A stretch of 64,000 bases of DNA, taken from the NCBI GenBank assembly GCA_017446095.1, contig JAFSRN010000011.1, positions 62,001 through 126,000 of the forward strand. The letters run 5' to 3'. Under the pieces are notes generated by a model. The model saw nothing but the letters and a program-made list of their open reading frames with translations. It ran no database searches and was not told the DNA's origin. Made by a program: the position numbers and the translations under genes. Of the stretch, positions 34,150 to 56,436 are shown in pieces; the first letter of the stretch is position 1; each line of letters opens with the position of its first letter. This DNA is from Eubacterium sp. (GTDB lineage Bacteria; Bacillota; Clostridia; Oscillospirales; Acutalibacteraceae).

Positions 34150-34235
34150 GTGGACAGAGGACAGTGGATAGTGGACAGTTATATGCTATCAGCGAGTTAA
34201 AAGCCTGCCCATACTGTTCACTGTTCACTGTCAAC
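34150..34235. repeat. Heptamer-arm element, GTGGACA/GTGAACA type
   Basis: The left arm iterates GTGGACA-like 7-mers four times. The right arm, read as reverse complement, iterates GTGAACA. The core contains AGCGAGTTAA. This is one of several elements with the same plan but different arm units. Confidence 0.6.
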
Positions 34236-34260
34236 AAAAAAGCCCCAAGGGGCTTTTTTT
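34236..34260. terminator. Bidirectional terminator, LRR protein gene
   Basis: A perfect palindrome AAAAAGCCCC/GGGGCTTTTT with A- and T-runs. It ends the LRR gene on the minus strand. Confidence 0.8.
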
Positions 34261-35746
34261 AATTCGTCTTAATTGTCTTAACTGCCGACCACTTGGAGTA
34301 AGACTTTTTCTTATTAACTACTTTGTATGCGCGCACGCGGACAAAGTATTTTTTCTTTGCCTTAAGCTTGCTTACTGTAGCTTTGGTATTCTTTGAACCC
34401 TTGACTGTTACGGTCTTTTTGTTCTTTGTAAATCCCTTGTCTGTTGCGCACTGAATCTGATAGCCCGATACGTTTGCGCTCTTTTTGTACGTTGCCGTGA
34501 ACGCCTTTCTGCCTGCGGTAAGCTTGTTAATTTTTGTGCCGGTAAGCTTATCTGCAGGAACGTTTGCGTTTGTCATTCCGCACACAGAGCAGGTTGCGGT
34601 CTTTTTGCCTGCCTTGGTGAAGGTTGAAGTGCACTTCTTCGTTACCCATTTATGCTTGTGCTCTTTATAGTTGAAGTGATTCTTTACTTCATCAGTCGTC
34701 CACGTGTGCTTTGTAAAAATGATACCTGATGAATCGAAATTGTCAAGATATCCCTCTTCTTCAAGATCCTCAAAAGATATTTTTTTGTGGTTTGCTTTTG
34801 TGCAGGCATACCAAAGATTTATCTTCTTTTTTGAGTTACAGAATTGTGCACGTACATCTTTTACGCTTGCAGGGATAATAATGTTCTGAATATTATTGCA
34901 GCCTGTAAATACGTCATTTGAAATTGTTTTTAACTGATTTGGTAACTTTACATAGTAAAGGCTTGTGCAATCCTCAAACGCATTGTACGCGATTATTTTT
35001 ACGCTATTGGGGAAGGTAATTGTTCTGATTCCGGAACAGCTAAACGCGCGTGCACCGACTTTTGTTACACTGTTTGGAATAGTGATGCCTGTTAATCCTA
35101 TGCAACCGTAAAACGCATCCATTCCAATTGATTTAACATCACTCGGGATTTTTGTTTTTTTACAGCCTGCAACCAACACGGCGCCGTTCTTTTTAATAAT
35201 AGCATTGCAGTTCTTTCTGCTGTCGTATGTTGCATTTTTTGAACTAACCTTAATTGTGGTAAGATTATCGCAAAATGCAAACACGCTGCCGTCAATTTCT
35301 TTAACACTTTCGGGAATGGTAATTGACGTTAACTTGAGGCAGCCTTCAAACGCGCCTGCATAAATGGTAGTAACGCTGTTAGGTATTTTAATGCTTGCTA
35401 ACTGCGCACAATCCACAAAAGCATAGCCGCCGATTTCCTCTAACGTATTCGGCAATTTTACGCTTGTAACAGCTTTGCACATTGAAAATACCTCAGTTCC
35501 GATTTCGGTAATACCCGACTTGATTTCGATAGTTTTGATATCGGTGCTGCCTGCAAAGCCGTCAAAATAATCCCTGATTATACCCGTACCGCTGATAACA
35601 AGCGCACCTGTGCTGCTGTCAAACGTATAAGTAGCGCTGTCGCCGCAATCGCCGCTTGCAGGAAGCGCATGTGCGGTAAACGGCAGAGCCGCCAGAGTGG
35701 TAATTATCATAATTAACGATAATACGATTGATAATGATTTTTTCAT
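34259..35746 (-). CDS. Secreted BspA-type leucine-rich repeat protein with FN3 domain
   Basis: A 495-residue exported protein. Signal peptide MKKSLSIVLSLIMIITTLAA... is followed by a beta segment (TYTFDSSTGALVISGTG). About eight LRR_5 repeats (65-310) then carry the pattern SVKxIxxxAFxxCxxLxxIxIPxSV. A linker with CxxC pairs (CTSTF, CSVCGM) leads to a C-terminal FN3 domain (about 405-495, GYQIQCATDKGFTKNKKTVTV, RVRAYKVVNKKKSYSKWS). BspA-like proteins mediate adhesion to host or other cells; this is family-level inference. The FN3 domain resembles those of the genes at 8037, 38871 and 47590. Confidence 0.9.
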   Translation of the reverse strand: MKKSLSIVLSLIMIITTLAALPFTAHALPASGDCGDSATYTFDSSTGALVISGTGIIRDYFDGFAGSTDIKTIEIKSGITEIGTEVFSMCKAVTSVKLPNTLEEIGGYAFVDCAQLASIKIPNSVTTIYAGAFEGCLKLTSITIPESVKEIDGSVFAFCDNLTTIKVSSKNATYDSRKNCNAIIKKNGAVLVAGCKKTKIPSDVKSIGMDAFYGCIGLTGITIPNSVTKVGARAFSCSGIRTITFPNSVKIIAYNAFEDCTSLYYVKLPNQLKTISNDVFTGCNNIQNIIIPASVKDVRAQFCNSKKKINLWYACTKANHKKISFEDLEEEGYLDNFDSSGIIFTKHTWTTDEVKNHFNYKEHKHKWVTKKCTSTFTKAGKKTATCSVCGMTNANVPADKLTGTKINKLTAGRKAFTATYKKSANVSGYQIQCATDKGFTKNKKTVTVKGSKNTKATVSKLKAKKKYFVRVRAYKVVNKKKSYSKWSAVKTIKTN

Positions 35747-35786
35747 AAATTTACCCCTTTCATATTATAAATGGTTTAACATTAAT

Positions 35787-35816
35787 ATTATAGCATACGG
35801 GCAATTGCGCCGTCAA
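35787..35816 (-). promoter_or_regulatory. Promoter of the LRR protein gene
   Basis: Minus-strand TTGACG (35811-35816), 18-bp spacer, TATAAT (35787-35792). Confidence 0.65.
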
Positions 35817-35859
35817 CAATTTAAACGCAAAAAAGACGGGTTAAAACCCGCCTTTGCTT

Positions 35860-37734
35860 TTATACCATTAAATCGACTATGCTGTCCGCAAGCTCGGTGG
35901 GATTGTCAACCGTGAGCCCTGCAATAAGCCGTGCCTGATTGTAAAGGATTTTTGTGTACTTTTCAAGCGTTGCGTCATCCGCATTTGCAAGCTTGTCTGC
36001 AATCGGATGGGACGAGCTGATTTCCAGCACGAGCTGCGCTTTTACCTGCTCGTTTGCGCCGGGCATCTGCGCAAATACCTTTGCCATTTCAAGGCTCATA
36101 TAGCCCTCTGCCGCAAGCGAAACCGCGTGGCTGCCGAGCTTGTTGGTGAGCTTAACCGCCGTTACCTCGTCGCCGAGCAGATCCTTCATCTTGCCGAGCC
36201 ACTCTTTTGAGTCCTCGTTCTTCTTTTGCATTTCCTCTTTTTCCGCGTCGGTGGAAATGTCAAAGTCGTCCTTAAGGATATTTGCAAAGTGCTTGCCGTC
36301 GTATTCCATAAGCATCTGGATTGCAAACTCGTCCACATCGTCGGTGAAGAACAGCACCTCGTAGCCCTTTTCCTTAACAGCCTCACACTGCGGAAGCAGG
36401 GCGATTTTATCCTCATTTTCGCCGCACGCGTAGTAGATTGTATCCTGCGAATCAGCCATTCTGTCGCGGTACTCTTTGAGGGTTGCGTAGCCGCCGTTTG
36501 ACGATTTGAACAGTAGCAAATCCTTGAGTCCGTCCTTGTTCATACCGTAGTCGGCATAAACGCCCCACTTAATCTGCACGCCGAAGGTTTTCCAGATTTC
36601 CTCATACTTTTCGCGCTCTTTGCGCAGCAGCTTTGTGAGCTCGGACTTAATCTTTTTGTCAATCGCCTTTGCGATGATTTTAAGCTGGTGGTCGTGCTGC
36701 AGAATTTCGCGCGAGATGTTGAGCGACAGGTCTGCGCTGTCCACCAAACCCTTAACGAAGCTGAAGTAATCGGGCAGCAGGTCGGCACACTTGTCCATAA
36801 TCAGAACGCCGTTTGAGTAGAGCTGCAAGCCCTTTTCGTACTCTTTTGAGTAAAAGTCGAACGGTGCGTTTTTCGGCACGAACATCAGCGCGTCGAACGT
36901 CGCCTGACCTTCGGTTTTTGAGTGAATAACAAGCGCAGGTTCAGTGTAATCGTAGAACTTCTGCTTGTAGAATTCGTTGTAGTCCTCGTCGGTGATTTCA
37001 CTCTTGCTCTTGCGCCAGATCGGCACCTGCGAGTTAAGCACCTCGTCGTTAACCTCTGTGATGTACTCGCCCTCATTGTCAGGGTCGGGCACCTGCGAAG
37101 TCATCTCCATAACAATCGGGTAGCGGATGTAATCGCTGTACTTTTTAACAAGCTCCTGAATCTTGTACTGCTCAAGATATTGGTCGTAGTCGTCGTTTTC
37201 GGTGTTTTCTTTGATATGCAGTTTAATCACGGTGCCGATTGCATCCTTTTCGCAAGGCTCAATCGTGTAGCCGTCCGCGCCTTCGCTCGTCCACTTTGCA
37301 GCCTCGTCGCTGCCGAGCGCCTTTGACACAACCTCAACCTTGTCGGCAACCATAAACGAGGAGTAGAAGCCTACGCCGAACTGACCGATGACCTCAATAT
37401 TTTCCATATTCTCGTCGCCTTCGTTGTCGTTTTTGAAGTTGAGAGAGTCGGATTTTGCAATCGTGCCGAGGTTCTTTTCAAGCTCGTCGGGAGTCATACC
37501 GATACCGTTGTCTGAAATGGTAATCGTGCGCGCGTCCTTATCAAGCTCAATGCGGATATCAAGCTTGTCGGTGGCAATGCTTGTGTCCGTAAGCGATTTG
37601 AAGTAGAGCTTGTCCGTTGCGTCGCTCGCGTTGGAGATAAGCTCGCGCAAAAAGATTTCCTTGTGTGTGTAAATCGAATTTATCATCATATCAAGGAGTT
37701 TTTTTGATTCTGCTTTAAACTGTTTTTTTCTCAA
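35860..37734 (-). CDS. htpG: Chaperone protein HtpG (Hsp90)
   Basis: A 624-residue Hsp90 chaperone (ATP-dependent folding of client proteins in the cytosol). The ATP domain carries FKAESKKLLDMMINSIYTHKEIFLRELISNASDA (spread over residues 4-37), DNGIGMTPDEL and IGQFGVGFYSSFMVADKV. The middle and C-terminal dimerisation domains are complete. The start is taken as TTG at 37734, 5 nt after AAGGTGA, giving the usual MRKKQFKAES; an ATG at 37749 would add five residues and lacks a ribosome site. Transcription is governed by a CIRCE operator, implying HrcA heat-shock control. Confidence 0.95.
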   Translation of the reverse strand: MRKKQFKAESKKLLDMMINSIYTHKEIFLRELISNASDATDKLYFKSLTDTSIATDKLDIRIELDKDARTITISDNGIGMTPDELEKNLGTIAKSDSLNFKNDNEGDENMENIEVIGQFGVGFYSSFMVADKVEVVSKALGSDEAAKWTSEGADGYTIEPCEKDAIGTVIKLHIKENTENDDYDQYLEQYKIQELVKKYSDYIRYPIVMEMTSQVPDPDNEGEYITEVNDEVLNSQVPIWRKSKSEITDEDYNEFYKQKFYDYTEPALVIHSKTEGQATFDALMFVPKNAPFDFYSKEYEKGLQLYSNGVLIMDKCADLLPDYFSFVKGLVDSADLSLNISREILQHDHQLKIIAKAIDKKIKSELTKLLRKEREKYEEIWKTFGVQIKWGVYADYGMNKDGLKDLLLFKSSNGGYATLKEYRDRMADSQDTIYYACGENEDKIALLPQCEAVKEKGYEVLFFTDDVDEFAIQMLMEYDGKHFANILKDDFDISTDAEKEEMQKKNEDSKEWLGKMKDLLGDEVTAVKLTNKLGSHAVSLAAEGYMSLEMAKVFAQMPGANEQVKAQLVLEISSSHPIADKLANADDATLEKYTKILYNQARLIAGLTVDNPTELADSIVDLMV

Positions 37735-37767
37735 AATAGTCACCTTCATAACATAATTTTTGTAAAG

Positions 37768-37794
37768 TTAGCACTCTCTTGCCTTGAGTGCTAA
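37768..37794. promoter_or_regulatory. CIRCE operator (HrcA binding site)
   Basis: Perfect TTAGCACTC-N9-GAGTGCTAA inverted repeat (37768-37776 and 37786-37794) beginning 5 bp downstream of the htpG -10 box, covering the transcription start. Confidence 0.97.
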
Positions 37795-37798
37795 CTAT

Positions 37799-37826
37799 AT
37801 TATAGTCTTTATTTTCCATTTGTCAA
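37799..37826 (-). promoter_or_regulatory. Promoter of htpG
   Basis: Minus-strand TTGACA (37821-37826), 16-bp spacer, TATAAT (37799-37804), directly upstream of CIRCE. Confidence 0.85.
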
Positions 37827-37838
37827 TAGTATTGTTTG

Positions 37839-37867
37839 TTGAATTTTTGCCAAATATATGTTATATT
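37839..37867 (+). promoter_or_regulatory. Promoter of the GT2 gene
   Basis: TTGAAT (37839-37844), 17-bp spacer, TATATT (37862-37867). Confidence 0.65.
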
Positions 37868-37898
37868 GTTATTACATTTATAAAGGACAGATAAAACT

Positions 37899-38840
37899 AT
37901 GGATTTATCATTTGTTATCCCCTGCTACAACGAGCAGGGCAATGTTGAAAAGTTTTTTGAGGAGAGCGAAAAGGCTTTTGCGCTGACAGGCATAAAGTAC
38001 GAATACGTTTTTGTAAACGACGGCAGCACCGACAAAACGGGCGAAAAGCTGAAGGCTCTGTTTAACGCAAACACGACGAAGAACATCAGCGTTATTGATT
38101 TTTCGCGCAACTTCGGTAAGGAGAGCGCAATCTATGCAGGCTTGCAGCACGCGTGCGGCGACTGCATCTGCATTATTGACGCAGACCTGCAGCAGCGCCC
38201 CGAAACCGCGCTTGAGATGTACAAATTCATAATGCAAAACCGCGACTTCGACTGCGTTTGCGCATATCAGAAAGACCGCGGCGAAAGCAAGGCGATGAGC
38301 GGAATGAAATCCGCGTTTTACAAGATAATGAACACGCTTGTTGAAACGGAATTCAAGGACGGCGCAAGCGACTTCCGCCTGTTTAACACCAAGGTGCGCG
38401 ACGCGATTTTGTCGCTTGGCGAATACCACCGATTTTCAAAGGGTATTTTCAGCTGGGTGGGCTTTAACGTGCATTATATGGAATACAAGGCGGATGAGCG
38501 CAACAGCGGCGAAACGAAGTGGGGCTTCGGCAAGCTTGTGCGCTATGCGATATCTGGCATTGTGGCGTTTTCCACCGCACCGCTTAAGCTGGCGGTTTAC
38601 ATCGGCTCGTTTGCAACCGTGTTCTCCGTAATCTACCTGATTATCACGATAATCCGCAAGCTGACCTCGCACATCAATGTGGACGGCTTTACGCAGCTTG
38701 TAATACTGATTTCGTTCTTCGCAGGCATAACGCTGGTGATACTCGGCATCATAGGCGAATACATTGCAAAAATCTACCAGCAGGTTAAAAACCGACCGAT
38801 TTATATTGCAAAAGATGTGCTGAAACGTAACGACAAATAA
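37899..38840 (+). CDS. GT2 glycosyltransferase, DPM1/GtrB-like
   Basis: A 313-residue membrane-bound transferase that probably moves a sugar from a nucleotide sugar to undecaprenyl phosphate. The GT2 domain has SFVIPCYNEQGNVE, VFVNDGSTDKT, the DADLQQRPE metal motif (about 88-96) and SDFRLF. Two membrane segments (about 230-252 and 265-288) follow, as in GtrB/ArnC-like proteins. AAGGACAG precedes the ATG. Downstream by 30 nt lies a secreted FN3 protein gene. The sugar and acceptor are unknown. Confidence 0.92.
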   Translation: MDLSFVIPCYNEQGNVEKFFEESEKAFALTGIKYEYVFVNDGSTDKTGEKLKALFNANTTKNISVIDFSRNFGKESAIYAGLQHACGDCICIIDADLQQRPETALEMYKFIMQNRDFDCVCAYQKDRGESKAMSGMKSAFYKIMNTLVETEFKDGASDFRLFNTKVRDAILSLGEYHRFSKGIFSWVGFNVHYMEYKADERNSGETKWGFGKLVRYAISGIVAFSTAPLKLAVYIGSFATVFSVIYLIITIIRKLTSHINVDGFTQLVILISFFAGITLVILGIIGEYIAKIYQQVKNRPIYIAKDVLKRNDK

Positions 38841-38870
38841 TTATTTAATTAAGAAAGAAGGATATTAAAA

Positions 38871-40094
38871 TTGAAACACATTGCAAAAAACTTAATTTGC
38901 ATCTTACTTGCTGTATGTATGCTCACGCCAACAACAGCGTTAGCTGCATCAAAACTGAAAACCCCAACAGGATTAAAGCTTGTTTCAACCACGTCAAATT
39001 CCATTAGCATAAAATGGAACAAAGTCAGCGGCGCAAAAAAATATACCGTGCAGTATTCCGCTTACAAAAATTTTAAAGATACTAAAAAAATCAATGTTTC
39101 GGGCACAAAGGCGACAGTAAAAAAGCTGACACCTAACAAAACGTATTATTTACGCGTGCGTTCAATTAAAAAAGGTGTAACTTCAAGCAAATACACAAAA
39201 GCAATCCGTGCAAAAACAAAAAAGACTGTGGAACAGACTGTCAAGGGTCTGATATCGGGACACTATCTGTACTGGAAATATCAATCAGACAGCAGCGATA
39301 TTTATGAATACGCTTTTGCAAAAGACGGTACTTTTACGGAAAAAGGGCTGCTGTTCAACGGAAATTCCGTGACTGAAACTCTTAGTCTTAACGGCACATA
39401 CACCGTCAAAGGCAACGAGGTGCTTTTGAATATAAAAAGCGGAACTGTCAACGGCAGCAGCATTTCCCCGTATAAGAGAATTCTGTACTATGCCGGGAAC
39501 AAAAAATTTGCAAGCGACTTATACGTCAAAGATAAAAAAACCTTCGGTCGTATCCATCATTATCAAAAAAACAAACTTACCGAAGCAAATCTTAAAAGCT
39601 ATTGTAACAGTCTGAAAAACAACGAAGTTTCGCAAATAACAAAAAAGGATTACTATTCATTTGATTCCGTGCTGGATAGTTATTTTTACTCAAACACCGA
39701 AAACCATTATGCAGACGTTTACTATAACTACCTTGTTTTGAATACAAAATACGGCAAAAAGAAAGCGCTTGTAGTTACTACATATATGTCTGCATATCTG
39801 CAAAACAGCATAGTATACGCTATGAAAAGCGACGGCAAATTGGTAAAAATCCAGCGACTTCCCGGTCAGATCACCCGATATACCAAGGACAGAAAAACTA
39901 TACTGACATATAATTATGCAGGTTCGGGTGACGGTCAGTTCAACATTATGAATTACAGCAGCAAAAACGGTAAGTATCAAACCGGCACAAAATACGCATT
40001 TAATATGTCAACGCGTGATTCCGTATACAGCAAGGTCGAAAACAAAACAAAGAATTTTGTATCATTCGACGCGACAAAACACAAACTATTATAA
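38871..40094 (+). CDS. Secreted fibronectin type III domain protein (paralog)
   Basis: A 407-residue exported protein starting with TTG; AGAAAGAAGGA lies upstream. The signal peptide (LICILLAVCMLTPTTALAAS) and FN3 domain (about 30-118, ISIKWNKVSGAKKYTVQYS) closely match those of the protein at 8037-9023. The following 290 residues differ, with a repeated beta pattern (YEYAFAKDGTFTEKG, SLNGTYTVKGNEVLLNIKSG) resembling lipocalin-like or DUF sandwich folds; no family is assigned. Base composition is more AT-rich than the upstream GT2 gene. Probably a surface or extracellular binding protein. Confidence 0.82.
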   Translation: MKHIAKNLICILLAVCMLTPTTALAASKLKTPTGLKLVSTTSNSISIKWNKVSGAKKYTVQYSAYKNFKDTKKINVSGTKATVKKLTPNKTYYLRVRSIKKGVTSSKYTKAIRAKTKKTVEQTVKGLISGHYLYWKYQSDSSDIYEYAFAKDGTFTEKGLLFNGNSVTETLSLNGTYTVKGNEVLLNIKSGTVNGSSISPYKRILYYAGNKKFASDLYVKDKKTFGRIHHYQKNKLTEANLKSYCNSLKNNEVSQITKKDYYSFDSVLDSYFYSNTENHYADVYYNYLVLNTKYGKKKALVVTTYMSAYLQNSIVYAMKSDGKLVKIQRLPGQITRYTKDRKTILTYNYAGSGDGQFNIMNYSSKNGKYQTGTKYAFNMSTRDSVYSKVENKTKNFVSFDATKHKLL

Positions 40095-40102
40095 AACGAA
40101 AT

Positions 40103-40409
40103 AAGAGTAAGGCAAAGCCCACCTGTGCTAAAGGATAATAAGTCTCAGTTCTTATTCTTTTGCACAATAACATCGTTAAAATAAATAACCAAGGCGACAG
40201 CCTTGGTTATTATTTATGCCTTGTTCTTGCACAAAATCATTAAGAATGAGGTGCGAAGCAGTTTAAATCGTTCGATTTTGTTCAGATTGGTGATTACAAA
40301 ATTGTTCGCATACTCGCGTATTCGGGCGATTTTTAATCGCCAAGGTGGGCGAAAGCGGGCGATTTAAACCTTGTTCTCCTTTAGTACAGGTGGGCAACGC
40401 CTTACTCTT
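40103..40409. mobile_element. 307-bp MITE-like element with 33-bp terminal inverted repeats
   Basis: The left end (40103-40135) and the reverse complement of the right end (40377-40409) match at 29 of 33 positions, both starting AAGAGTAAGGC and including GCCCACCTGT. No coding capacity is seen. Inside lies a TAACCAAGGC/GCCTTGGTTA hairpin (about 40187-40210). The right end supplies the last codons and stop of the KdsC-like gene. No clear target duplication was found. Confidence 0.65.
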
Positions 40410-40878
40410 TTTCATTCAGTTCGATAACGTATTCCGCGGCTTCGCGGACTGCGCCTTCGCCGCCTTTTTTGGTGAGCACCACATCAACCTTTGGTTGAAT
40501 CTGCTTCATCGCGTCGTTGGGGCAGAAGGTCAAGCCCACCAAATCCATCATCTTCAGGTCGTTAATATCGTCGCCGAGGTACGCAACCTCGCTGTAATCA
40601 ATGCCCGTGCGCTGCAGGATTTCCGCCAGCACTTCGGGCTTATTTTTTGCGCCCTGATGGAATTCGTCAATCTTGAGTTTTGTTGCACGGCGTTCGAGCA
40701 GCGGTGTATTTTCGCTGCTGATTATGCCCGTGAGCACGCCGCTGTTGCGCAGCATCTCAAAGCCCATACCGTCGCGTGCGTTGAACTTTTTCCACTCGTT
40801 GCCGAGGTTATCGTAATACATACCGCCGTCGGTCATACAACCGTCGCAGTCGGTAATAAAAAGTTTTATTTTAGCCAT
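40402..40878 (-). CDS. KdsC-like HAD phosphatase, likely nonulosonate 9-phosphate phosphatase
   Basis: A 158-residue HAD phosphatase without cap domain. Motifs are FITDCDGCMTDGG (DxDG), ISSENTPLLERRATKLKI and YLGDDINDLKMM. The stretch TDGGMYYDNLGNEWKKFN recalls, from memory, the KDN-9-phosphate phosphatase of Bacteroides thetaiotaomicron more than true KdsC. It lies 3 nt after a CMP-sugar synthetase and follows a NeuB-like synthase, giving a synthase-phosphatase-cytidylyltransferase set. Its final codons and stop lie in the right end of the MITE-like element, so the C-terminus may be altered. Confidence 0.82.
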   Translation of the reverse strand: MAKIKLFITDCDGCMTDGGMYYDNLGNEWKKFNARDGMGFEMLRNSGVLTGIISSENTPLLERRATKLKIDEFHQGAKNKPEVLAEILQRTGIDYSEVAYLGDDINDLKMMDLVGLTFCPNDAMKQIQPKVDVVLTKKGGEGAVREAAEYVIELNEKE

Positions 40879-40881
40879 AGG

Positions 40882-41565: not shown

Positions 41566-41579
41566 TTGCTATCTCCTTA

Positions 41580-42443: not shown

Positions 42444-42461
42444 AAATCTATCTCCTTTAGG

Positions 42462-47523: not shown

Positions 47524-47568
47524 TACATATTTTCGCACACTATATATTGTGGTTTTGCTGTTCAGGGC

Positions 47569-48798: not shown

Positions 48799-48871
48799 AT
48801 ACTTTACTCCTTTTGTATATTTTTGTGTTTTCATTATACTGCATAGCGTGCAAAAAATAAAGCCTTTTTTC

Positions 48872-48901
48872 AAAAAAATACGGCTCGCCGCAGCAAGCCG
48901 T
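48872..48901 (-). terminator. Terminator of the third CDP-glycerol transferase gene
   Basis: Minus-strand ACGGCTTGC/GCGAGCCGT stem with TGCG loop followed by ATTTTTTT. Confidence 0.85.
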
Positions 48902-48906
48902 AATAA

Positions 48907-50241
48907 TTATATCTCTTCTATCACCGCTTCGGCTACGCGTTTTGCAGCCGAGCCGTCGTCAAGATAGTTGAACTTCGGGCGGAAGGCAGGGTACGATTTT
49001 TCAAAATCAAAGCCGTCAAAATCGATTGACTTAATCTCCGCAATAAGGTCGTCCGTAGTCTTGACAATCCTGCCCGGAATCTCGGAAATATCAATGTAAA
49101 ATCCGCGAATGTTGTTTGCGTACGCGTCGAAGTCGTACATATAAAACGCCATCGGTCTGCCGAGGTTTGCGTAGTCAAAGAACACGCTTGAATAGTCGGT
49201 AATCAGCATATCCGCGGCGATGTACAGGCGGTTGATATCCGCAACGCCGGAAACATCCCATACAAAGCCCTTGTACTTTTCAAAATTAAAGCTGTTTGCC
49301 ACAAGGTAATGCGCCCTGAAAAGTATGATATACTCATCCGCCAACGCGTTGCGCAGCTTGTCAAAATCAGCCTCGGGCTCATAGACATAGCCAAGCTCGC
49401 TGTCGTGCTGATTATCGCGCCACGTCGGTGCGTAAAGAATAATCTTTTTGCCGTCGGGCAGGTCAAGCTCTTCCTTGATTTTCTGCACGTCAGCGTCGGT
49501 AAAATTCTTGAGGAAGTCGTTGCGCGGATAACCTGCAACAAGCACGGTATCCTCCTTGCCGATAGCCTTAAGGTTCCACGCGGATGCAAACTTTTCGCCT
49601 GCAAAATCGCTTGGCGCAAGGATGTATTTGAACTTTGCGGAGTCAATGTCGTACTTCTCGCGGATTTCCTTTTGCGAATTCATAACATTGTCGGAAATCG
49701 CGATGTCGTAGCCCAGCCTTTTAAGCGGCGTGCCGTGCCAGAGTTGCACATAAACCTGGTCGTCCTTGGGGTAGATGTAGTCGGCAATGCGGTAGTTGTA
49801 AAGCCAGTATTTTGCCGTGGCGCACACCAAATCGTACTGCGGCGTGGCAGGCTGAACAAAGTATGTGTTTTTGTTTTCAAGCAAAAACTTGAAGTCTTTG
49901 GGCGAGCGAAACGCCCACACAAAGGTGTAATCGTCAAAGCGGCTGTCGGTGAGCATATACTCATAAATCGCCTTTGGGCTGTCGCCGTACGACCTGCCGT
50001 CGAAGGTGGAAAACAGAATAACTTTAGGGTCTGTTTTGATGTCCTTTGTGCGCTTTTCGTACGCCATTTTGCGCTTTAAATTGAGTGCGTCGCGCGAAGC
50101 TTTGCGGAATAGCGCGCTCTTTTTTGCAACGTCAAGAGCAAGCGCCTTAACCTTGCTGTCCTGCTTTGTAAGATGCGAAAAGTCAGGCAGACTGTCAAGC
50201 TTATCAATATCGTTTTTACCGTACCAGATCATAGTAATCAT
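48907..50241 (-). CDS. CDP-glycerol glycerophosphotransferase family protein
   Basis: A 444-residue TagB/TagF-like transferase similar to the protein at 46216-47463. Motifs are VQLWHGTPLKRLGYD, VAGYPRNDFLKNF, IILYAPTWRDNQ and DMLITDYSSVFFDYANLGRP, ending FNYLDDGSAAKRV. The N-terminal 60 residues are an extra helical, charged stretch. The ribosome site is weak, so the start could also be the ATG four codons later. It has its own promoter, embedded next to a heptamer-arm repeat, and a strong terminator. Confidence 0.92.
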   Translation of the reverse strand: MITMIWYGKNDIDKLDSLPDFSHLTKQDSKVKALALDVAKKSALFRKASRDALNLKRKMAYEKRTKDIKTDPKVILFSTFDGRSYGDSPKAIYEYMLTDSRFDDYTFVWAFRSPKDFKFLLENKNTYFVQPATPQYDLVCATAKYWLYNYRIADYIYPKDDQVYVQLWHGTPLKRLGYDIAISDNVMNSQKEIREKYDIDSAKFKYILAPSDFAGEKFASAWNLKAIGKEDTVLVAGYPRNDFLKNFTDADVQKIKEELDLPDGKKIILYAPTWRDNQHDSELGYVYEPEADFDKLRNALADEYIILFRAHYLVANSFNFEKYKGFVWDVSGVADINRLYIAADMLITDYSSVFFDYANLGRPMAFYMYDFDAYANNIRGFYIDISEIPGRIVKTTDDLIAEIKSIDFDGFDFEKSYPAFRPKFNYLDDGSAAKRVAEAVIEEI

Positions 50242-50244
50242 TCC

Positions 50245-50365
50245 AAGTTATAAATTATGAATTATTAATTATGAATCGATGTTTCTCGCTGTGCTCATTC
50301 AATTAAATCAGGTGCGGACAGAGTCCGCCCGAAATTCATCATTCATCATTTATAATTCATCATTT
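50245..50365. repeat. Heptamer-arm element, TTATGAA/GATGAAT type
   Basis: The left arm iterates TTATAAA, TTATGAA, TTATTAA, TTATGAA. The right arm iterates ATTCATC several times. The core, read on the minus strand, runs GGACTCTGTCC...CACCTGATT...AATTG...TGAGCACAGCGAG and matches the core of the element at 53405-53517 almost base for base, although the arms are unrelated. Confidence 0.7.
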
Positions 50366-50395
50366 ATTGTATTATATATCATAACCATTTGTCAA
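50366..50395 (-). promoter_or_regulatory. Promoter of the third CDP-glycerol transferase gene
   Basis: Minus-strand TTGACA (50390-50395), 18-bp spacer, TACAAT (50366-50371). The whole repeat element lies in the 5' leader of this gene. Confidence 0.6.
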
Positions 50396-50410
50396 CATAA
50401 TAAATTTCAT

Positions 50411-50439
50411 TTGACAAATGCAACCCGCGGTGCTATTAT
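50411..50439 (+). promoter_or_regulatory. Promoter of the T-box-thrS transcript
   Basis: TTGACA (50411-50416), 17-bp spacer, TATTAT (50434-50439). Confidence 0.75.
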
Positions 50440-50449
50440 ATGGTTAATA

Positions 50450-50666
50450 ATTAAGGCAATGACGGGAACACGGCAGTTTGCCGCAGCGTTTAAGAGAGTG
50501 CTTGGTTGGTGAAAAAGCACACGCTGACAGATTGTCACCGCCCCCGAGCCGCACACAGGAAATGGTGTGCCGTACACCTGCGTTAAAGGTTTTGAGTGAT
50601 ACCGCACGCGGTATAATTCAGGTGGAACCGTGTATTTTTGCACCCTGAAATTCAGGGTGTTTTTAT
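50450..50666 (+). promoter_or_regulatory. T-box leader controlling thrS
   Basis: A tRNA-sensing leader. Stem I features are AGAGAG (50493-50498) and the GGTTGGTG distal region (about 50504-50511). The T-box sequence is AGGTGGAACCG (50620-50630). An ACC codon (Thr) at 50537-50539 lies in the expected specifier region. The terminator is GCACCCTGAA/TTCAGGGTG followed by TTTTTATTTTTT. Uncharged tRNA-Thr would stabilise the antiterminator and allow thrS transcription. The specifier assignment is by eye. Confidence 0.9.
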
Positions 50667-50687
50667 TTTTTCAAGGAGGAAATGAAG

Positions 50688-52625
50688 ATGAAGATTACTC
50701 TTAAAGACGGCGCTGTTCTTGAATACAACGAGGCTAAAACTGCTGCCGACATCACAAAAGACATCTCTATGGGACTTTACCGCAACGCTACGTCCTGCAA
50801 AATCAACGGCGAGGTTGCTGACCTGCGCACCGTTATTGACGGCGACTGCGATTTTGAAGTGCTGACCTTTGACGATGAGGACGGCAAAAAGACGTTTAAC
50901 CACACCGCTTCGCACATTATGGCGCAGGCTGTTAAGCGCCTGTATCCGGATGCGAAGCTGACTATCGGCCCTGCTATCACAGACGGCTTTTACTACGATT
51001 TTGACGTTGAAAAATCCTTCTCACCCGACGACCTCACAAAGATTGAGGGCGAGATGAAGAAGATTGTTAAGGAAAATCCTGCGATTGAACGCTTTGAACT
51101 TCCTGTTGACGAGGCTATCGCACTTATGGAAGAAAAGAATGAGCCGTACAAAATCGAACTCATCAAGGAGCACGCCGACAAGGGCGAGGCTATCAGCTTT
51201 TACAAGCAGGGCGAATTCACCGAGCTTTGCGCAGGCCCTCACCTTATGGATATGAAGGTGGTTAAGGCGTTCAAGCTCACGCAGTGCACAGGTGCTTACT
51301 GGCGCGGCGATGAGAAAAACAAGATGCTCTGCCGCGTTTACGGCACAGCGTTCCCGAAGGCGTCAATGCTTGAAGAACACCTTGCCGCAATTGAGGAAGC
51401 AAAAAAGCGCGACCACAACAAGCTCGGCAGAGAACTTGAGCTGTTTACAACGGTTGACTACATCGGTCAGGGACTGCCGATTATGCTGCCCAAGGGCGCA
51501 AAGATTATTCAGATTCTGCAGCGCTGGGTTGAGGACGAGGAAGCAAAGCGCGGCTGGCAGCTCACAAAAACGCCGTTTATGGCAAAGAGCGACCTTTACA
51601 AAATCAGCGGACACTGGGATCACTATCAGGACGGTATGTTCGTTCTCGGCGACCCCGAAAAGGACAAGGAAGTGTTTGCACTTCGTCCGATGACCTGCCC
51701 GTTCCAGTATCAGGCTTACCTTGCAAAGGCGCGCTCATACCGCGACCTTCCGCTGCGTTACGACGAAACCTCAACGCTGTTCCGCAACGAGGCTTCGGGC
51801 GAGATGCACGGCTTAATCCGCGTGCGCCAGTTCACAATCAGCGAAGGCCACCTTATGTGCCGCCCCGACCAGCTTGAGGATGAGTTCAGAAAGTGCCTTG
51901 ACCTGTGCGAATATATGCTCAAAACGCTCGGTCTTTACGAGGACGTATCGTTCCGCTTCTCACAGTGGGACCCGAACAACCGCGAAAAGTATATCGGCAC
52001 CGAAGAGCAGTGGGACGAGGCACAGGGTGTGATGAAGAACATCCTTGACGACCTCGGACTCGACTACAAAATCGGCATCGGCGAGGCTGCGTTCTACGGA
52101 CCGAAGCTTGACATCCAGATTAAAAATGTGTTCGGCAAAGAGGACACGCTCATCACAATCCAGATTGACCAGATGCTTGCCGAAACATTTGGTATGGAAT
52201 ACGTTGACTCCGATGGACAGAAAAAGAATCCTTACATCATCCACCGCACATCAATCGGCTGCTACGAGCGAACGCTTGCCCTGCTGATTGAAAAGTACGC
52301 AGGCGCGTTCCCGACCTGGATGGCACCCGTACAGGTTAAGTTTCTGCCAATCGCAGACAGGCATCAGGACTACGCACGCGAGATGATTGCAAAGCTGCAG
52401 GCAGTCGGCGTTCGCTGCGAGCTTGACGACAGAAGCGAAAAAATCGGCTTTAAGATCCGCAGCGCGCAGATGGAAAAAATCCCGTATATGATTCTTGTCG
52501 GCGACAAGGACATTGAGGCAGGCACAATCTCCGTACGTTCACGCAAGAACGGCGACGAGGGCGCAACCTCAATAGATGACTTTATCGCAAGAATCACCGA
52601 GGAAATCGACAGCAAAGCGAGATAA
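50688..52625 (+). CDS. thrS: Threonyl-tRNA synthetase
   Basis: A 645-residue class II synthetase that charges tRNA-Thr. Domains in order: TGS (1-62, MKITLKDGAVLEYNEAKTAADI), editing domain with HTASHIMAQAVKRLYP and AGPHLMD (about 65-240), catalytic core with MRPMTCPFQYQ-type motif, RNEASGEMHGLIRVRQF and HRTSIGCYERTLALLIE, and anticodon-binding domain (about 540-645). The start is put at 50688, 7 nt after AAGGAGGA; the ATG at 50682 is too close. Expression is T-box-controlled, and a strong terminator follows. Confidence 0.97.
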   Translation: MKITLKDGAVLEYNEAKTAADITKDISMGLYRNATSCKINGEVADLRTVIDGDCDFEVLTFDDEDGKKTFNHTASHIMAQAVKRLYPDAKLTIGPAITDGFYYDFDVEKSFSPDDLTKIEGEMKKIVKENPAIERFELPVDEAIALMEEKNEPYKIELIKEHADKGEAISFYKQGEFTELCAGPHLMDMKVVKAFKLTQCTGAYWRGDEKNKMLCRVYGTAFPKASMLEEHLAAIEEAKKRDHNKLGRELELFTTVDYIGQGLPIMLPKGAKIIQILQRWVEDEEAKRGWQLTKTPFMAKSDLYKISGHWDHYQDGMFVLGDPEKDKEVFALRPMTCPFQYQAYLAKARSYRDLPLRYDETSTLFRNEASGEMHGLIRVRQFTISEGHLMCRPDQLEDEFRKCLDLCEYMLKTLGLYEDVSFRFSQWDPNNREKYIGTEEQWDEAQGVMKNILDDLGLDYKIGIGEAAFYGPKLDIQIKNVFGKEDTLITIQIDQMLAETFGMEYVDSDGQKKNPYIIHRTSIGCYERTLALLIEKYAGAFPTWMAPVQVKFLPIADRHQDYAREMIAKLQAVGVRCELDDRSEKIGFKIRSAQMEKIPYMILVGDKDIEAGTISVRSRKNGDEGATSIDDFIARITEEIDSKAR

Positions 52626-52626
52626 G

Positions 52627-52655
52627 AAAAGCCGCCCGTTGGGCGGCTTTTCAGT
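52627..52655 (+). terminator. Terminator of thrS
   Basis: GAAAAGCCGCCC and GGGCGGCTTTTC pair around GTT. Confidence 0.85.
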
Positions 52656-52746
52656 TTGCCGTTAGCCGTGTGCCGTTAGCAGTCTTATTGTCCGGGCGTA
52701 GCGAGTAACCGACAACTGCAAACTGTTGACTGCTAACTGCTAACTG
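52656..52746. repeat. Heptamer-arm element, GTTAGCA type
   Basis: The left arm has GCCGTTA and GTTAGCA units, and the right arm iterates CTGCTAA/CTAACTG. The core TTGTCCGGGCGTAGCGAGTA continues ACCGA and matches the right half of the core at 53480-53505. Confidence 0.65.
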
Positions 52747-52747
52747 A

Positions 52748-52783
52748 CGAAATATACCACCTGAATAACAGTGGTATATTTCG
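52748..52783. repeat. Perfect 13-bp inverted repeat
   Basis: CGAAATATACCAC and GTGGTATATTTCG face each other around a 10-nt spacer. There is no T-run; it could be an operator or a small hairpin repeat. Confidence 0.6.
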
Positions 52784-52847
52784 ACTACAAGTCCTTGTGT
52801 TTATTTATTAACAGATTGTAAATCTCGCAAATCTAAATCACAAGATA

Positions 52848-52876
52848 TTGAAAGTTTAAGCGAAATATGGTATAAT
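52848..52876 (+). promoter_or_regulatory. Promoter of the nfeD-SPFH operon
   Basis: TTGAAA (52848-52853), 17-bp spacer, TATAAT (52871-52876). The roughly 90-nt leader can pair CATATGGA (52885-52892) with TCCATATG (52941-52948), with a smaller AT stem between them. Confidence 0.7.
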
Positions 52877-52973
52877 AGGCACGACATATGGAAAGAGAGA
52901 AATGTGGGCAGCACAATATAATATGTATATATTATTATCCTCCATATGAATAATATAATAGGGAGAAAACGGT

Positions 52974-53405
52974 ATGGCAGATGTAAAGATGTATGTTGTC
53001 TGGGCGGCGCTGATTGTGGCGTTTTGCGTGCTTGAAGGCATTACGGCTCAGCTTGTATCCATCTGGTTTGTTATCGGTGCGATTGCAGCGCTTATTGCGC
53101 AGTTGTGCGGCGCGTCGCTGATAATTCAGATAGTTGTGTTTATAGCCGTGAGCATAGTTGCACTGCTTGTCACCCGTCCGATTGTTAAAAAGAAGCTGAA
53201 CACCAAGACCGAAAAAACTAACGCAGACCGATGTATCGGAATGCAGGGCGTTGTCACCGAGGATATTGACAACCTCGCCCCGTCAGGTCAGGTAAAAGTT
53301 GACGGCAAGGTGTGGACAGCGCGCTCGTCCGCGGGCGAAAACATACCCGAGGGCGCAGTAGTAACCGTTGAAAAAATCGACGGAGTAAAATTAATAGTTA
53401 AATAG
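52974..53405 (+). CDS. NfeD-like membrane protein
   Basis: A 143-residue NfeD-family protein of the short type: two to three membrane segments (about 5-25, 28-44, 47-68) and a soluble OB-fold domain (80-143, RCIGMQGVVTEDIDNLAPSGQVKVDGKVWTARS in parts). Such proteins partner stomatin/SPFH proteins in membrane microdomains. The SPFH gene follows after a repeat element. GGGAGAAAACGGT precedes the ATG. Confidence 0.9.
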   Translation: MADVKMYVVWAALIVAFCVLEGITAQLVSIWFVIGAIAALIAQLCGASLIIQIVVFIAVSIVALLVTRPIVKKKLNTKTEKTNADRCIGMQGVVTEDIDNLAPSGQVKVDGKVWTARSSAGENIPEGAVVTVEKIDGVKLIVK

Positions 53406-53517
53406 AGGTGTTAAGAGTTAAGTATTAAGTTTTAAGCTTAATGGTGGACTCCGTCCACACCCGATTATAATTGTTTGAGCAAAGCGAGTAACCGAAAGCT
53501 TAACACTCAACACGCAA
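53405..53517. repeat. Heptamer-arm element, GTRTTAA type, inside the nfeD-SPFH operon
   Basis: The left arm iterates GTGTTAA, GAGTTAA, GTATTAA, GTTTTAA. The right arm has TTAACAC and TCAACAC. The core contains GTGGACTCCGTCCAC, CACCCGATTATAATTG and TGAGCAAAGCGAGTAACCGA and matches the cores at 50245-50365 (minus strand) and 52656-52746. Confidence 0.7.
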
Positions 53518-53543
53518 AACATAAAACCAAAAGGAGATTTACT

Positions 53544-54470
53544 ATGGGACCACTGGCAATTGTAATTATTTTACTTATCATCGCAGTATTTGCACTTGTA
53601 TTTGCAAACATCAGGATTGTGCCGCAGTCAAAGGCATTTGTAATTGAAAGACTCGGCGCATACTCAACCACATGGGAAACGGGACTGCACGTAAAAATCC
53701 CGTTTATCGAGAGGGTTGCAAAAACCGTTTCGCTCAAAGAGCAGGTTGTTGACTTCAAGCCGCAGCCGGTTATCACAAAGGATAACGTAACAATGCAGAT
53801 TGACACGGTTGTATTCTTCCAGATTACAGACCCCAAGTTGTACTGCTACGGCGTTGAAAGCCCGATTTCGGCAATCGAAAATCTGTCGGCAACCACGCTG
53901 CGTAACATCATCGGCGAGCTCGAGCTCGACTCAACGCTCACCTCGCGCGACACAATTAACGCGAAAATCCGCGTAATCCTTGACGAAGCAACCGACCCGT
54001 GGGGCATCAAGGTTAACCGCGTTGAGCTTAAGAACATCATTCCGCCGCGCGAGATTCAGGACGCGATGGAAAAGCAGATGAAGGCAGAGCGTGAGCGCCG
54101 TGAGGCAATCCTTCGCGCAGAGGGTGAAAAGCAGTCGAGAATCCTTGTAGCAGAAGGTCACAAGGAGTCAAAAATCCTCGAGGCAGAGGCAGAAAAGCAG
54201 TCTGCAATCCTGCGCGCAGAGGCTGTTAAAGAAGCTAAAATCCGCGAGGCTGAGGGTGAAGCAGAAGCAATCGAAAAGGTACAGAAAGCGTCCGCAGACG
54301 CAATCAAGATGCTCAACGATGCAAACGCAAACGACTCGGTGCTCAAGCTCAAGGCAATGGAAGCGTTTTCAAGAGCTGCAAACGGACAGGCAACAAAGAT
54401 TATTATCCCGTCCGAAATCCAGTCAATCGCCGGCCTTGCAGAAGGCGTTGTAGAAGCAGTTAAAAAGTAA
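53544..54470 (+). CDS. SPFH/stomatin-like protein (QmcA-type)
   Basis: A 308-residue membrane-anchored SPFH protein. One N-terminal membrane segment (about 3-22) precedes IVPQSKAFVIERLGAYSTTWETGLHVKIPFIERV and the SPFH core (DNVTMQIDTVVFFQI, DPWGIKVNRVELKNI). A long Glu/Ala/Lys coiled coil (about 180-275) leads to a C-terminal IIIPSEIQSIAGL. It forms a partner pair with the NfeD-like protein. The start at 53544 has AAGGAG 8 nt upstream. The role in membrane organisation or protease control is family-based inference. Confidence 0.93.
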   Translation: MGPLAIVIILLIIAVFALVFANIRIVPQSKAFVIERLGAYSTTWETGLHVKIPFIERVAKTVSLKEQVVDFKPQPVITKDNVTMQIDTVVFFQITDPKLYCYGVESPISAIENLSATTLRNIIGELELDSTLTSRDTINAKIRVILDEATDPWGIKVNRVELKNIIPPREIQDAMEKQMKAERERREAILRAEGEKQSRILVAEGHKESKILEAEAEKQSAILRAEAVKEAKIREAEGEAEAIEKVQKASADAIKMLNDANANDSVLKLKAMEAFSRAANGQATKIIIPSEIQSIAGLAEGVVEAVKK

Positions 54471-54510
54471 TTATGCAGGGCGCGATGCCCCAATCGTGCC
54501 GCTAACTCAA

Positions 54511-54540
54511 GTAGGGGCGGATATCATCCGCCCTTTTTTC
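54511..54540 (+). repeat. GTAGGG hairpin repeat acting as terminator
   Basis: GTAGGGGCGGATATCATCCG... with a GGGCGGAT/ATCCGCCC stem followed by TTTTTT. Its first 23 nt are identical to the minus-strand copy at 55618-55640. It probably terminates the nfeD-SPFH transcript. Confidence 0.75.
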
Positions 54541-54547
54541 ACAAATT

Positions 54548-54574
54548 GTAGGGAGCGGCGACCCCGACGCTCCG
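54548..54574 (+). repeat. GTAGGG hairpin repeat
   Basis: Identical over 27 nt to the reverse complement of 1609-1635. No T-run follows. Confidence 0.75.
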
Positions 54575-54614
54575 AGGGAAAACAATTAATTATAATATTA
54601 TCAAGGACGATTAA

Positions 54615-55595
54615 ATGAGAACCGAATTTAACGTATTTGGACAGACTTACAAACCCAAAAACAAAGTTCAGGGCGTTTTCGTAAGTGTTTTGTTTGTTCT
54701 GTTTTTTGTGGGAGTTATTTATTCGTTCATTGTGTTAGGACTATATACCAACAATATAAAGGATTACAGTCACACCCACAATGAACTAAATACATATGCC
54801 CCTATTTCTAACGTGGCATACAATGAAGAAACGCAGCTTGTATATGTGTTTTTCGAGGAAGCTAACGCTGTTAATGCTTATAATACGAGCGGTGATTTTC
54901 AGTGGTCGGTAAGCATTCCGAAGCAAAGAAACGGTTCGACACAGTTTTACCTTGATAACGACAAATTATATCTTATTTGGAACGATACATATATCTACAA
55001 TGCCAAAACGGGTGAGTTTATTGAAACACACGAGTGCACCAGTGGCGAGCTTGACAAGGCTGACGATTTTGAAGAAAACTATTCCCTTGAAGGTACGGGC
55101 GTGGATCATGATATAATAGATGTCTATACCGTTGACAAAGAAGGATATGTAAAAAGCTACATTGTCAACAGACCGGAATACTATATTCTTTTAAACCCGA
55201 TTGCAGGCTGGCTCATAAGCTTTACAAGCGGTATAATTATTTCTGCTCTGGCGATTTTCGGGGCACTTAATTCAACAAAAAAACGCAAGGTCAATAAAGA
55301 GAATTGCAGAATGTCTGCAAAGCTTTTTACTGCCTGGTATAAGCTTTTGACAATAATCACTGCAATCTATGCCGTTGCAAATATTGTTTTGCTTTTTTGC
55401 TCACCGATTGTAATACTGCACGGTATCGCTCCTATTGGCATTCTGTTTATTGTCAGCGGGTGGGTTTATACCTTTGTTCATAAGCGTTTTAATACAGATG
55501 AAAAAAATGCTGTGCGCTTATGGGCTATCAGATGCGTTATCGCCTTTGGTGCTGCTTTTTTCAGCACGCTCATAGGTGTTGCTGCATTTGAATAA
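54615..55595 (+). CDS. Membrane protein of unknown function
   Basis: A 326-residue protein. One membrane segment (about 20-43) is followed by about 150 residues outside that look like part of a beta-propeller or PQQ-like repeat (VAYNEETQLVYVFFEE, TSGDFQWSVSIPKQ, DNDKLYLIWNDTYIYNAKTGEFIE). Four more membrane segments follow (about 195-218, 240-262, 265-287, 303-323). AAGGA lies upstream of the ATG. The coding sequence is more AT-rich than trmB or the SPFH gene and it is boxed in by GTAGGG repeats on both sides, suggesting an accessory insertion. No family recognised. Confidence 0.75.
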   Translation: MRTEFNVFGQTYKPKNKVQGVFVSVLFVLFFVGVIYSFIVLGLYTNNIKDYSHTHNELNTYAPISNVAYNEETQLVYVFFEEANAVNAYNTSGDFQWSVSIPKQRNGSTQFYLDNDKLYLIWNDTYIYNAKTGEFIETHECTSGELDKADDFEENYSLEGTGVDHDIIDVYTVDKEGYVKSYIVNRPEYYILLNPIAGWLISFTSGIIISALAIFGALNSTKKRKVNKENCRMSAKLFTAWYKLLTIITAIYAVANIVLLFCSPIVILHGIAPIGILFIVSGWVYTFVHKRFNTDEKNAVRLWAIRCVIAFGAAFFSTLIGVAAFE

Positions 55596-55617
55596 AATAA
55601 AAGTAATACGAATTTGC

Positions 55618-55640
55618 GGGCGGATGATATCCGCCCCTAC
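55618..55640 (-). repeat. GTAGGG hairpin repeat, minus orientation
   Basis: Reverse complement is identical to 54511-54533. On the plus strand CCCTACATTTTTTT gives a terminator-like T-run for the membrane protein gene. Confidence 0.75.
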
Positions 55641-55649
55641 ATTTTTTTG

Positions 55650-55678
55650 TTGCAATGGGCGGCGAAATGGTTTATAAT
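55650..55678 (+). promoter_or_regulatory. Promoter of trmB
   Basis: TTGCAA (55650-55655), 17-bp spacer, TATAAT (55673-55678), only 17 nt before the ATG, so the leader is very short. Confidence 0.6.
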
Positions 55679-55695
55679 TTTTTCGGTGATGACAA

Positions 55696-56367
55696 ATGAG
55701 ACCAAGACATAAGAAAAATCTGGACAGCAGGCTCGAGGCGGTGGGCGATTATCTGATTACGCTGCGCAACGACAGCCTGAATTTTGAGGATGCGAAAAAA
55801 GAAAGCCACCTGCTTGATTTGCAGGCGCTTTTCGGCAACGACAACCCCATTCATCTTGAAATCGGCGGCGGCAAGGGAACCTTTGCTACCACGCTTGCCG
55901 AGCAAAATCCCGACATCAACGTGCTCTGCGTTGAAAAGGTGCGCGACGTAATAGTTGTGGGCTGCGAAACAGCGAAGGAAAAGGGGCTCACTAACATCAA
56001 GTTCCTCGACTGCGCGGCGGAATATCTGCCGTCGTACATACCCGAAAAGTCGATTGAGCTGCTGTATCTCAACTTCTCCTGCCCGTACCCGAAAAAGAGC
56101 TACGCATCGCACAGGCTGACGCACGAGCGCTTTTTGAACATATACAAAACGCTGCTCAGGAACGGCGCGCCGATTTACCAGAAAACGGACAATATGCACT
56201 TTTTTGAGTTTTCGATTGAAGAATTTTCAAAGTGCGGCTTTGTGCTGTCAAACATCTCGCTCGACTTGCACAACAGCGACTTTGAGGGCAACATAGTCAC
56301 AGAGTACGAGGCAAGATTTTCCTCGCAGGGCTTCCCTATCTATAGGTTAGAAGCTCGGTTAAAATAA
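55696..56367 (+). CDS. trmB: tRNA (guanine-N7-)-methyltransferase TrmB
   Basis: A 223-residue SAM-dependent enzyme that methylates G46 of tRNAs. The SAM motif LEIGGGKGTFATTLAEQNP is at about 55-73; later motifs are LYLNFSCPYPKKSYASHRLTHERFL and the C-terminal TEYEARFSSQGFPIYRLEA, matching the family from end to end. The ribosome site is weak (GGTGAT) and the predicted leader is short. A strong terminator follows. Confidence 0.95.
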   Translation: MRPRHKKNLDSRLEAVGDYLITLRNDSLNFEDAKKESHLLDLQALFGNDNPIHLEIGGGKGTFATTLAEQNPDINVLCVEKVRDVIVVGCETAKEKGLTNIKFLDCAAEYLPSYIPEKSIELLYLNFSCPYPKKSYASHRLTHERFLNIYKTLLRNGAPIYQKTDNMHFFEFSIEEFSKCGFVLSNISLDLHNSDFEGNIVTEYEARFSSQGFPIYRLEARLK

Positions 56368-56371
56368 CAAC

Positions 56372-56401
56372 AAAACGGACGGAATTATCCGTCCGTTTTT
56401 T
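56372..56401 (+). terminator. Terminator of trmB
   Basis: AACGGACGGA/TCCGTCCGTT stem followed by TTTT. Confidence 0.85.
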
Positions 56402-56429
56402 CTGAAAACTGAACACTGAAAACTGATAA
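56402..56429. repeat. One-armed heptamer remnant, CTGAAAA type
   Basis: CTGAAAA, CTGAACA, CTGAAAA, CTGATAA in a row, followed by CCGCAGG. No right arm is visible. Confidence 0.5.
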
Positions 56430-56436
56430 CCGCAGG

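Follow-up and report, generated by a model that had tools for sequence, protein, structure and literature searches.

The 64-kb window analysed here (C5:62001-126000 of a 2.09-Mb genome in 22 contigs) holds four small intergenic elements and two one-armed remnants, all present where the original prediction had put them. An uninterrupted element reads arm, small hairpin, AT-rich middle, inverted hairpin, arm. The arms are tandem heptamers, and the core consists of two half-cores, mutually inverted around the AT-rich middle. Half-cores come in four types: P (GGTGTGGACGAAGTCCACC-like), Q (GAGCGNAGCGAGTAACC or GAGGCGAAGCCGAGTAACC), R (GCCGTGCGCAGCACC) and T (GGAGCGAAGCGACC).

Table 1. Elements and one-armed remnants in the 64-kb window, in window coordinates.
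Feature	Position	Strand	Arms	Core	Family triplet	Setting
One-armed remnant	1717..1736	.	AGTGAACAGTGGGCAGTT		GTC	Terminator-like hairpin upstream, GTAG-tagged palindrome downstream
Element 1	34149..34235	.	Left AGTGGAC, ~34149-34179; right ACTGTTC, 34213-34231	At most a decayed core left (34150-34235)	GTC	Adjoins, directly downstream, a terminator-like hairpin with T run
Element 2	50246..50364	-	50246-50276 and 50334-50364; complete, 119 bp	Q then P half-core	CAT	
Element 3	52652..52746	+	Left GTTAGC type, ~52652-52682; right 52714-52746	Q half-core only (pattern 52694-52710), without P half-core	GCT/GCA	Directly behind a terminator-like hairpin
Element 4	53406..53527	+	Left array 53410-53436; right arm to ~53527	P hairpin, Q half-core (pattern 53477-53493)	TAA	Between an NfeD-like gene and an SPFH-like gene
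One-armed remnant	56402..56430	.	CTGAAAA		GAA	Directly behind a terminator-like hairpin

RNA folding z-scores against dinucleotide shuffles, given as plus/minus strand, were -4.7/-3.0 for 34145-34240, -4.5/-5.8 for 50245-50370 and -3.3/-2.4 for 53403-53527; the stretch 52650-52750 scored weakly against shuffled sequence (-2.3/-1.9). The arms thus pair better than shuffled sequence, weakly so at this last stretch. A scan of the whole window against Rfam gave no match above the gathering score at the elements. Its only match was a T-box leader at 50450-50650 (104.7 bits), upstream of a 647-aa ORF at 50682. A degenerate 33-bp tandem repeat of 3.6 copies (54106-54225) lies within the reading frame downstream of element 4.

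Dispersal and placement in the genome

The elements are dispersed across the genome. The right part of the core, GAGCNNAGCGAGNAACC, matched 79 times genome-wide with up to 2 mismatches, compared with 13 matches of the reversed control, so the core is genome-wide, as the original prediction required. A few of the 74 core copies inspected fall in genes, and these look like chance. We counted 137 period-7 tracts with a score of at least 12 in an 839,855-bp sample, composed of the window and stretches of five contigs partly chosen for size and known core matches, and 0 after block shuffling. Other periods from 4 to 13 gave at most 13 tracts each; the 7, 13 and 10 tracts at periods 6, 9 and 12 are as expected in genes. 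The arrays are head-to-tail 7-nt units lying between genes, and neighbouring arrays no more than 500 bp apart carried inverted heptamers (distance up to 2) in 42 of 63 cases, compared with 19% of random pairs. The proposal that period, inversion and core persist while arm sequence varies is borne out genome-wide.

Element length is near-fixed, and placement follows gene ends. Both arms are complete in 21 elements, of which 13 have a length of 115-121 bp (about 118 bp) and 8, which contain inserts, one of 166-201 bp. Direct repeats at the ends of these 21 were no more frequent than in a shuffled control, giving no sign of target site duplication. We rejected 7-base target duplications as the source of the heptamers, the arms being inverted and no duplication seen. 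For 32 elements gene neighbours were found, and these are co-directional in 25; in 23 of the 25, the beginning of the first array falls within -24 to +40 of the upstream stop codon.

Arms and half-cores

The arms are built on a four-plus-three plan. We read 150 oriented arms outward from the core; no orientation could be assigned to 72 further arrays. A full arm comprises four heptamers plus 4 nt, that is 32 nt or 4.5 heptamers, and each heptamer joins a 4-nt linker (AATT, CATT, AACT, CACT or AGCT; AAYT/CAYT) to a 3-nt family triplet. Linkers are near-constant, and the triplet is near-uniform inside one element and varies from element to element. By arm, the triplet families are CAT (38), TAA (36), CTC (22), CCG (13), GAA (12), GAG (11), GTC (4), GCA (4) and CAA (3), with six more arms. 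The arms do vary from copy to copy, as predicted, but their heptamers are drawn from this limited set of recurring families. Across the 75 arms of AATT-type families, triplets agreed in 53% of comparisons within an arm versus 20% between arms, and linkers in 45% versus 42%. Over all 150 arms the corresponding values were 59% versus 11% for triplets and 39% versus 16% for linkers, and because of the latter AATT-type and AACT-type families are seen to differ in linker.

Linkers are ordered along the arm. In 55 complete CAT, CTC and CCG arms, the variant linker AACT occupied unit 3 17 times, as opposed to 1, 2, 4 and 1 times for units 1, 2, 4 and 5. With triplets left free, 80 genomes of the genus gave 168 matches with central AACT, in 19 genomes (reversed control, 1), versus 21 with AACT in unit 2, in 8 genomes, where one longer array can match both patterns. 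Different triplet families therefore share an ordered skeleton. Such order counts against slippage or copying of one arm from another, because either would erase linker differences. The string CTCTTAACTCTTAA, serving as a reversed control, matched in genus genomes G070, G002, G072, G007, G062, G098, G060 and G012. Since that string is itself a heptamer on the plan (AACT plus CTT), the triplet sets kept differ between species.

The two arms of an element are matched by family and mismatched by rule. Both arms belonged to the same family in 37 of 49 two-armed elements (shuffle mean 10.9, maximum 21 in 2000). The suggestion that arms within a copy always match thus holds for these 37 but not for the other 12, two of which (L029 and C3:114008) are parser misassignments. 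In 33 of the 37 same-family pairs one arm has A-start linkers and the other C-start linkers: units 2-4 contain 0 C-start linkers on one side versus 2-3 on the other, and the 37 pairs never show 0 on both sides or 2 and more on both. The first linker base was paired in 5% of cases in unit 2 and 8% in unit 3, compared with 48% and 47% when right arms were permuted within families. The kept mismatch is confined to the inner part of the arm, because in unit 4 that base pairs in 43% versus 56% of shuffled cases. The remaining positions of units 1 and 2 are paired in 76-100%. Protection against hairpin nucleases, or a role in recognition, may explain the mismatch. A relation between A/C-arm orientation and transcription (15 versus 6, 4 unassigned) was too weak to keep.

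Between the arms lie two interchangeable half-cores. The core shared among copies is conserved genome-wide, as first proposed, but it is not one core. The two half-cores of an element were alike in type in 7 of 49 two-armed elements, versus 21.4 expected. P adjoined the A-start arm in 19 of 25 P/Q pairs and Q in 6, and core orientation relative to the A and C arms is biased, not fixed. Of 83 P half-cores, 61 were scored as triloop hairpins, with a GNA loop in 33 of the 61; in DNA, a GNA triloop with a closing C-G pair has unusually high stability. P stem pairs vary on both sides: the second pair is GC in 33 and AT in 27, and the fifth is TA in 35, AT in 10, CG in 6 and GC in 4. GTAG-tagged palindromes are often nested in the element middle, and because of them spacers vary from 52 to 196 bp (52-66 bp in 28 of 49 elements). 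Some orthologous elements have arms of the same family and one half-core different (C13:134035, L019).

Relatives and distant phyla

Elements are patchy within the genus. Core matches occurred in 11 of 60 genomes including the source genome: 11 of 37 in the genus and 0 of 23 in the rest of the order. Period-7 tracts per Mb numbered 163 in the source genome, 63 in G034, 18 in G036 and 175 in G086, the G034 and G086 samples being partly chosen for known matches. The site of element 4 was compared at 30 loci, leaving out one that had no readable SPFH gene. It is occupied in the source genome, where the arms are of family TAA, and in G006 and G034, where they are CAT; the other 26 of the 29 loci read show a short gap that lacks an element.

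Sites are shared with G034 above chance, mostly with other arms. Of 653 gene gaps, 197 were comparable, and an array was also present in G034 at 15 of 48 gaps occupied here versus 7 of 149 unoccupied (odds ratio 9.2, Fisher p 4e-6); the other 33 of the 48 were empty there. For 61 element sites a comparison was possible, and G034 was flagged as occupied at 21 of them, 3 of which we judged spurious (nos. 5, 69 and 95). At the remaining 18, both arm families were equal at 2 (nos. 30 and 109, each with one half-core different), one arm was equal at 3 (nos. 65, 74 and 87) and 13 differed. In the comparison with G086, 5 of 8 comparable sites were occupied, 4 of them by another family, and in that with G036, 4 of 23 sites were flagged. 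Insertion hot spots, selection on the site or replacement of elements could each account for shared sites. In G034, gaps syntenic with C2:92151, C2:117327 and C3:32534 contain a repeat of about 200-270 bp with a Q-like half-core next to GGCGCCCCTGYTAAGGGGAG... and without heptamer arms. That repeat occupies the same gaps as heptamer elements in the source genome.

The rnc|smc gap was the best candidate site for a change of arms and looked decisive at first, but recurrence or loss is the likelier history there. In the source genome and G034 a Q half-core is fused into the end of rnc, with a CAT arm in the former versus a TAA arm in the latter; G071 has a decayed Q with a TAA arm. The gap is empty in G036, G086, G069 and G006, and smc identity to the source is 84-89% in these versus 81-82%. 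Over sampled pieces, median identity to the source is 84% for G086 (19 pieces only), 81% for G036 and 78% for G034. We do not claim arm switching at a fixed element here, since relatives closer by sequence have no element; recurrent insertion or loss explains the pattern at least as well as change in place. The earlier idea that one copy changes its arms was accordingly not borne out: the limited families recur in relatives, and half-cores are exchanged too. As a side observation, the final codon and the stop of the gene read as rnc come from the Q half-core (...VRA-stop in place of ...VRR-stop) both here (C3:104042, L076:4042) and in G034 (L200).

Arms on the 32-nt plan, with triplets left free, recur in several distant phyla. 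A scan of species genomes with AATTNNNAATTNNNAACTNNNAATTNNNAATT matched at least 117 stretches, 80 of which we read. Among the 83 matches listed, four triplets were identical in 32, three in 15, two in 30 and none in 6; the two-equal and none-equal groups probably include chance matches. The 32 all-identical matches among those listed include Cyanobacteria, Bacteroidota, Bacillota, Akkermansia, Fibrobacter, Pyrinomonadaceae and Chloroflexi, and in 25 of these 32 the periodic tract ends within about 2 bases of 32 nt. Of the 47 listed matches in which at least three of the four triplets are equal, 16 had an inverted partner within 450 bp under a loose rule. The order arm, hairpin, spacer, hairpin, arm was read at one Akkermansia locus. 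In the genomes behind 32 of the 80 loci read, among the matches listed, central AACT gave 187 matches (32 of them the selecting ones themselves) versus 86 for AACT in unit 2, and the reversed controls gave 12 and 13; unit 2 is the preferred place in some genomes. We therefore rejected a universal rule of central AACT: the preference is strong in the genus, weak elsewhere and reversed in some genomes.

Mobility and its alternatives

Bacterial heptamer arrays have repeatedly been described with no mechanism attached; in the present case such arrays form the ends of a defined unit that obeys rules. GGGAATC arrays of Xanthomonas form convergent inverted pairs, 70 and 75 in two genomes (PMC4692102), and the class 3 sites of Geobacter metallireducens, MTYCTGA, are five tandem heptanucleotides paired on opposite strands (PMC2700814). 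Both resemble the present elements in tandem heptamers and inverted pairs, and rotation of MTYCTGA would give an AATT-like linker followed by CTG; they differ in that we saw no linker/triplet split, A-arm/C-arm mismatch, two-hairpin core or several families per genome reported there. TAACTGA direct repeats occur between genes in Beggiatoaceae, Cyanobacteria and Bacteroidetes in 2-6 copies, and in the genome studied most of them lie a short way ahead of start codons (PMC4679880). They fit linker AACT plus GAT and are likewise intergenic and spread over distant phyla, but are mainly direct repeats placed before start codons, with one heptamer in focus. Tandem heptamers, inverted pairs and spread over phyla were thus known before in pieces, and the original view that no named family behaves this way is only partly upheld, tandem heptamers in inverted pairs being on record. 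The four-plus-three plan, the A-arm/C-arm rule, the two-hairpin core and the shared skeleton were not found in the literature searched, which covered few subscription papers; a search with six heptamer strings returned unrelated papers only. Small dispersed repeats of Nostoc are reportedly often embedded in heptameric repeats (Elhai 2008). By that account they share small hairpin units within tandem heptamers and nested insertions with the present elements, and differ in being 21-27 nt units of Cyanobacteria. Like MITEs, the present elements are short (about 118 bp), intergenic and numerous and have terminal inverted repeats, the arms pairing except at the kept mismatch. They differ from MITEs in showing no target duplication, in tandem-heptamer ends of several families and in that no parent transposon was found in the roughly 40% of the genome sampled.

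We interpret the elements, at about an even level of confidence, as a family of small non-autonomous mobile elements working as structured DNA, REPIN-like in mechanism and not assigned as a REPIN member. This reading is favoured because copies are genome-wide and near-fixed in length, arms match by family and follow the A-arm/C-arm rule, the mismatch is kept, P stems change on both sides, most comparable sites are empty in G034 and orthologous elements differ in one half-core. With one strand exposed, the arms would pair as a stem topped by the two hairpins. A putative trans-acting enzyme, most likely a single-strand HUH/Y1-type transposase, would recognise hairpins and arm ends and move the unit. 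Triplet families may then be separate lineages that share common insertion sites and exchange half-cores by recombination. In HUH-type transposition of IS200/IS605 the enzyme binds a subterminal hairpin on a single strand, cuts at the end and makes no target duplication; such transposition fits because no target duplication was seen and because hairpins are subterminal and arms paired. The likeness to IS200/IS605 is one of anatomy.

The search for a partner enzyme gave no linkage. Of 80 genus genomes, 38 have a Y1 match, but the one Y1 gene of the source genome has no bordering heptamer arms, none of six Y1 loci read in relatives has a period-7 array, and G034 has elements but no Y1 match. No longer autonomous copy or parent transposon with the same ends was seen in about 40% of the source genome. 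The 41 unpaired arms in the sample include two facing same-family pairs, 3.7 and 6.3 kb apart, which we rejected as autonomous copies; by translation they enclose ordinary genes (sortase-like plus dihydroxy-acid dehydratase; HrcA, GrpE, DnaK and DnaJ). It counts against mobility that neither excision nor fresh insertion was observed. Any genome can be screened for the rules of these elements.

A resident regulatory role is unlikely, though it has a basis in placement. The elements could act as RNA hairpins at gene ends, in stability or attenuation, or the arms as sites for a nucleoid or regulator protein. The start of first arrays close to stop codons favours this, and selection for an in-place function would also account for the above-chance sharing of sites with G034. 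Published proposals name IHF/HU or a global regulator (PMC2700814) and a translational regulator (PMC4679880). Against such a role stand the patchy distribution of core and central-AACT arms in the genus, the differing families at most shared sites, and the short gap at most loci orthologous to that of element 4.

Slippage alone is improbable. AATT-N3-AATT seeds would expand by polymerase slippage, with inverted pairs arising by chance or by hairpin-templated copying. Heptamers are reported as the commonest class of long repeats, with slippage as the process proposed (Mrazek 2007, as cited by PMC4679880 and PMC4692102), and some arrays here are longer or merge, for example C13:148092-148165. 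However, arm and element length are fixed, arm-to-arm copying would erase the kept mismatch, slippage would homogenise the variant linker concentrated in unit 3 of three triplet families, and conserved paired hairpins lie between the arms. Neither slippage alone nor arm-to-arm copying suffices, because the four-plus-three plan, fixed length, A-arm/C-arm rule and two hairpins occur together.

It is doubtful, though conceivable, that the triplet is a written address. Machinery serving at least 7 phyla would make or rewrite arms by placing the same three letters in every unit of both arms on a fixed skeleton, perhaps through telomerase-like repeated copying of a short template, and the triplet would pick the partner arm or enzyme.

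True REP doublets moved by the Y1 (RAYT) transposases of the genus are very improbable. REPINs and GTAG REPs with RAYTs (PMC3733652; see also PMC3116915) are likewise small, non-autonomous, intergenic inverted hairpin pairs with no parent gene inside, but the present elements have long heptamer arms outside the hairpins, and no linked RAYT was found. Half-cores P, Q, R and T do form two close inverted palindromic units that look like REP doublets, GTAG-tagged palindromes are nested in many cores, and several element-rich relatives, for example G070 and G002, have Y1 genes with open frames of about 250 aa. Set against this, the half-cores as defined here carry no GTAG tag, which in the copies read occurs only in nested inserts; three of four Y1 genes with flanks read have unrelated inverted ends; no element units flank the source genome's Y1 gene or the six Y1 loci in relatives; and G036 and G089, like G034, have arms and no Y1 match. 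We therefore rejected a RAYT as partner enzyme, there being no linkage to the elements at the loci read.

The source genome's only Y1 transposase-like ORF (L090:1072-1806, G000:C22) has GTAG-tagged palindromes within its reading frame. The Y1 genes of G070 and G002 (L275, L276 and L277) are flanked by unrelated inverted ends such as TTCAATTGGGGACTGTCCCCAATTGAAC.
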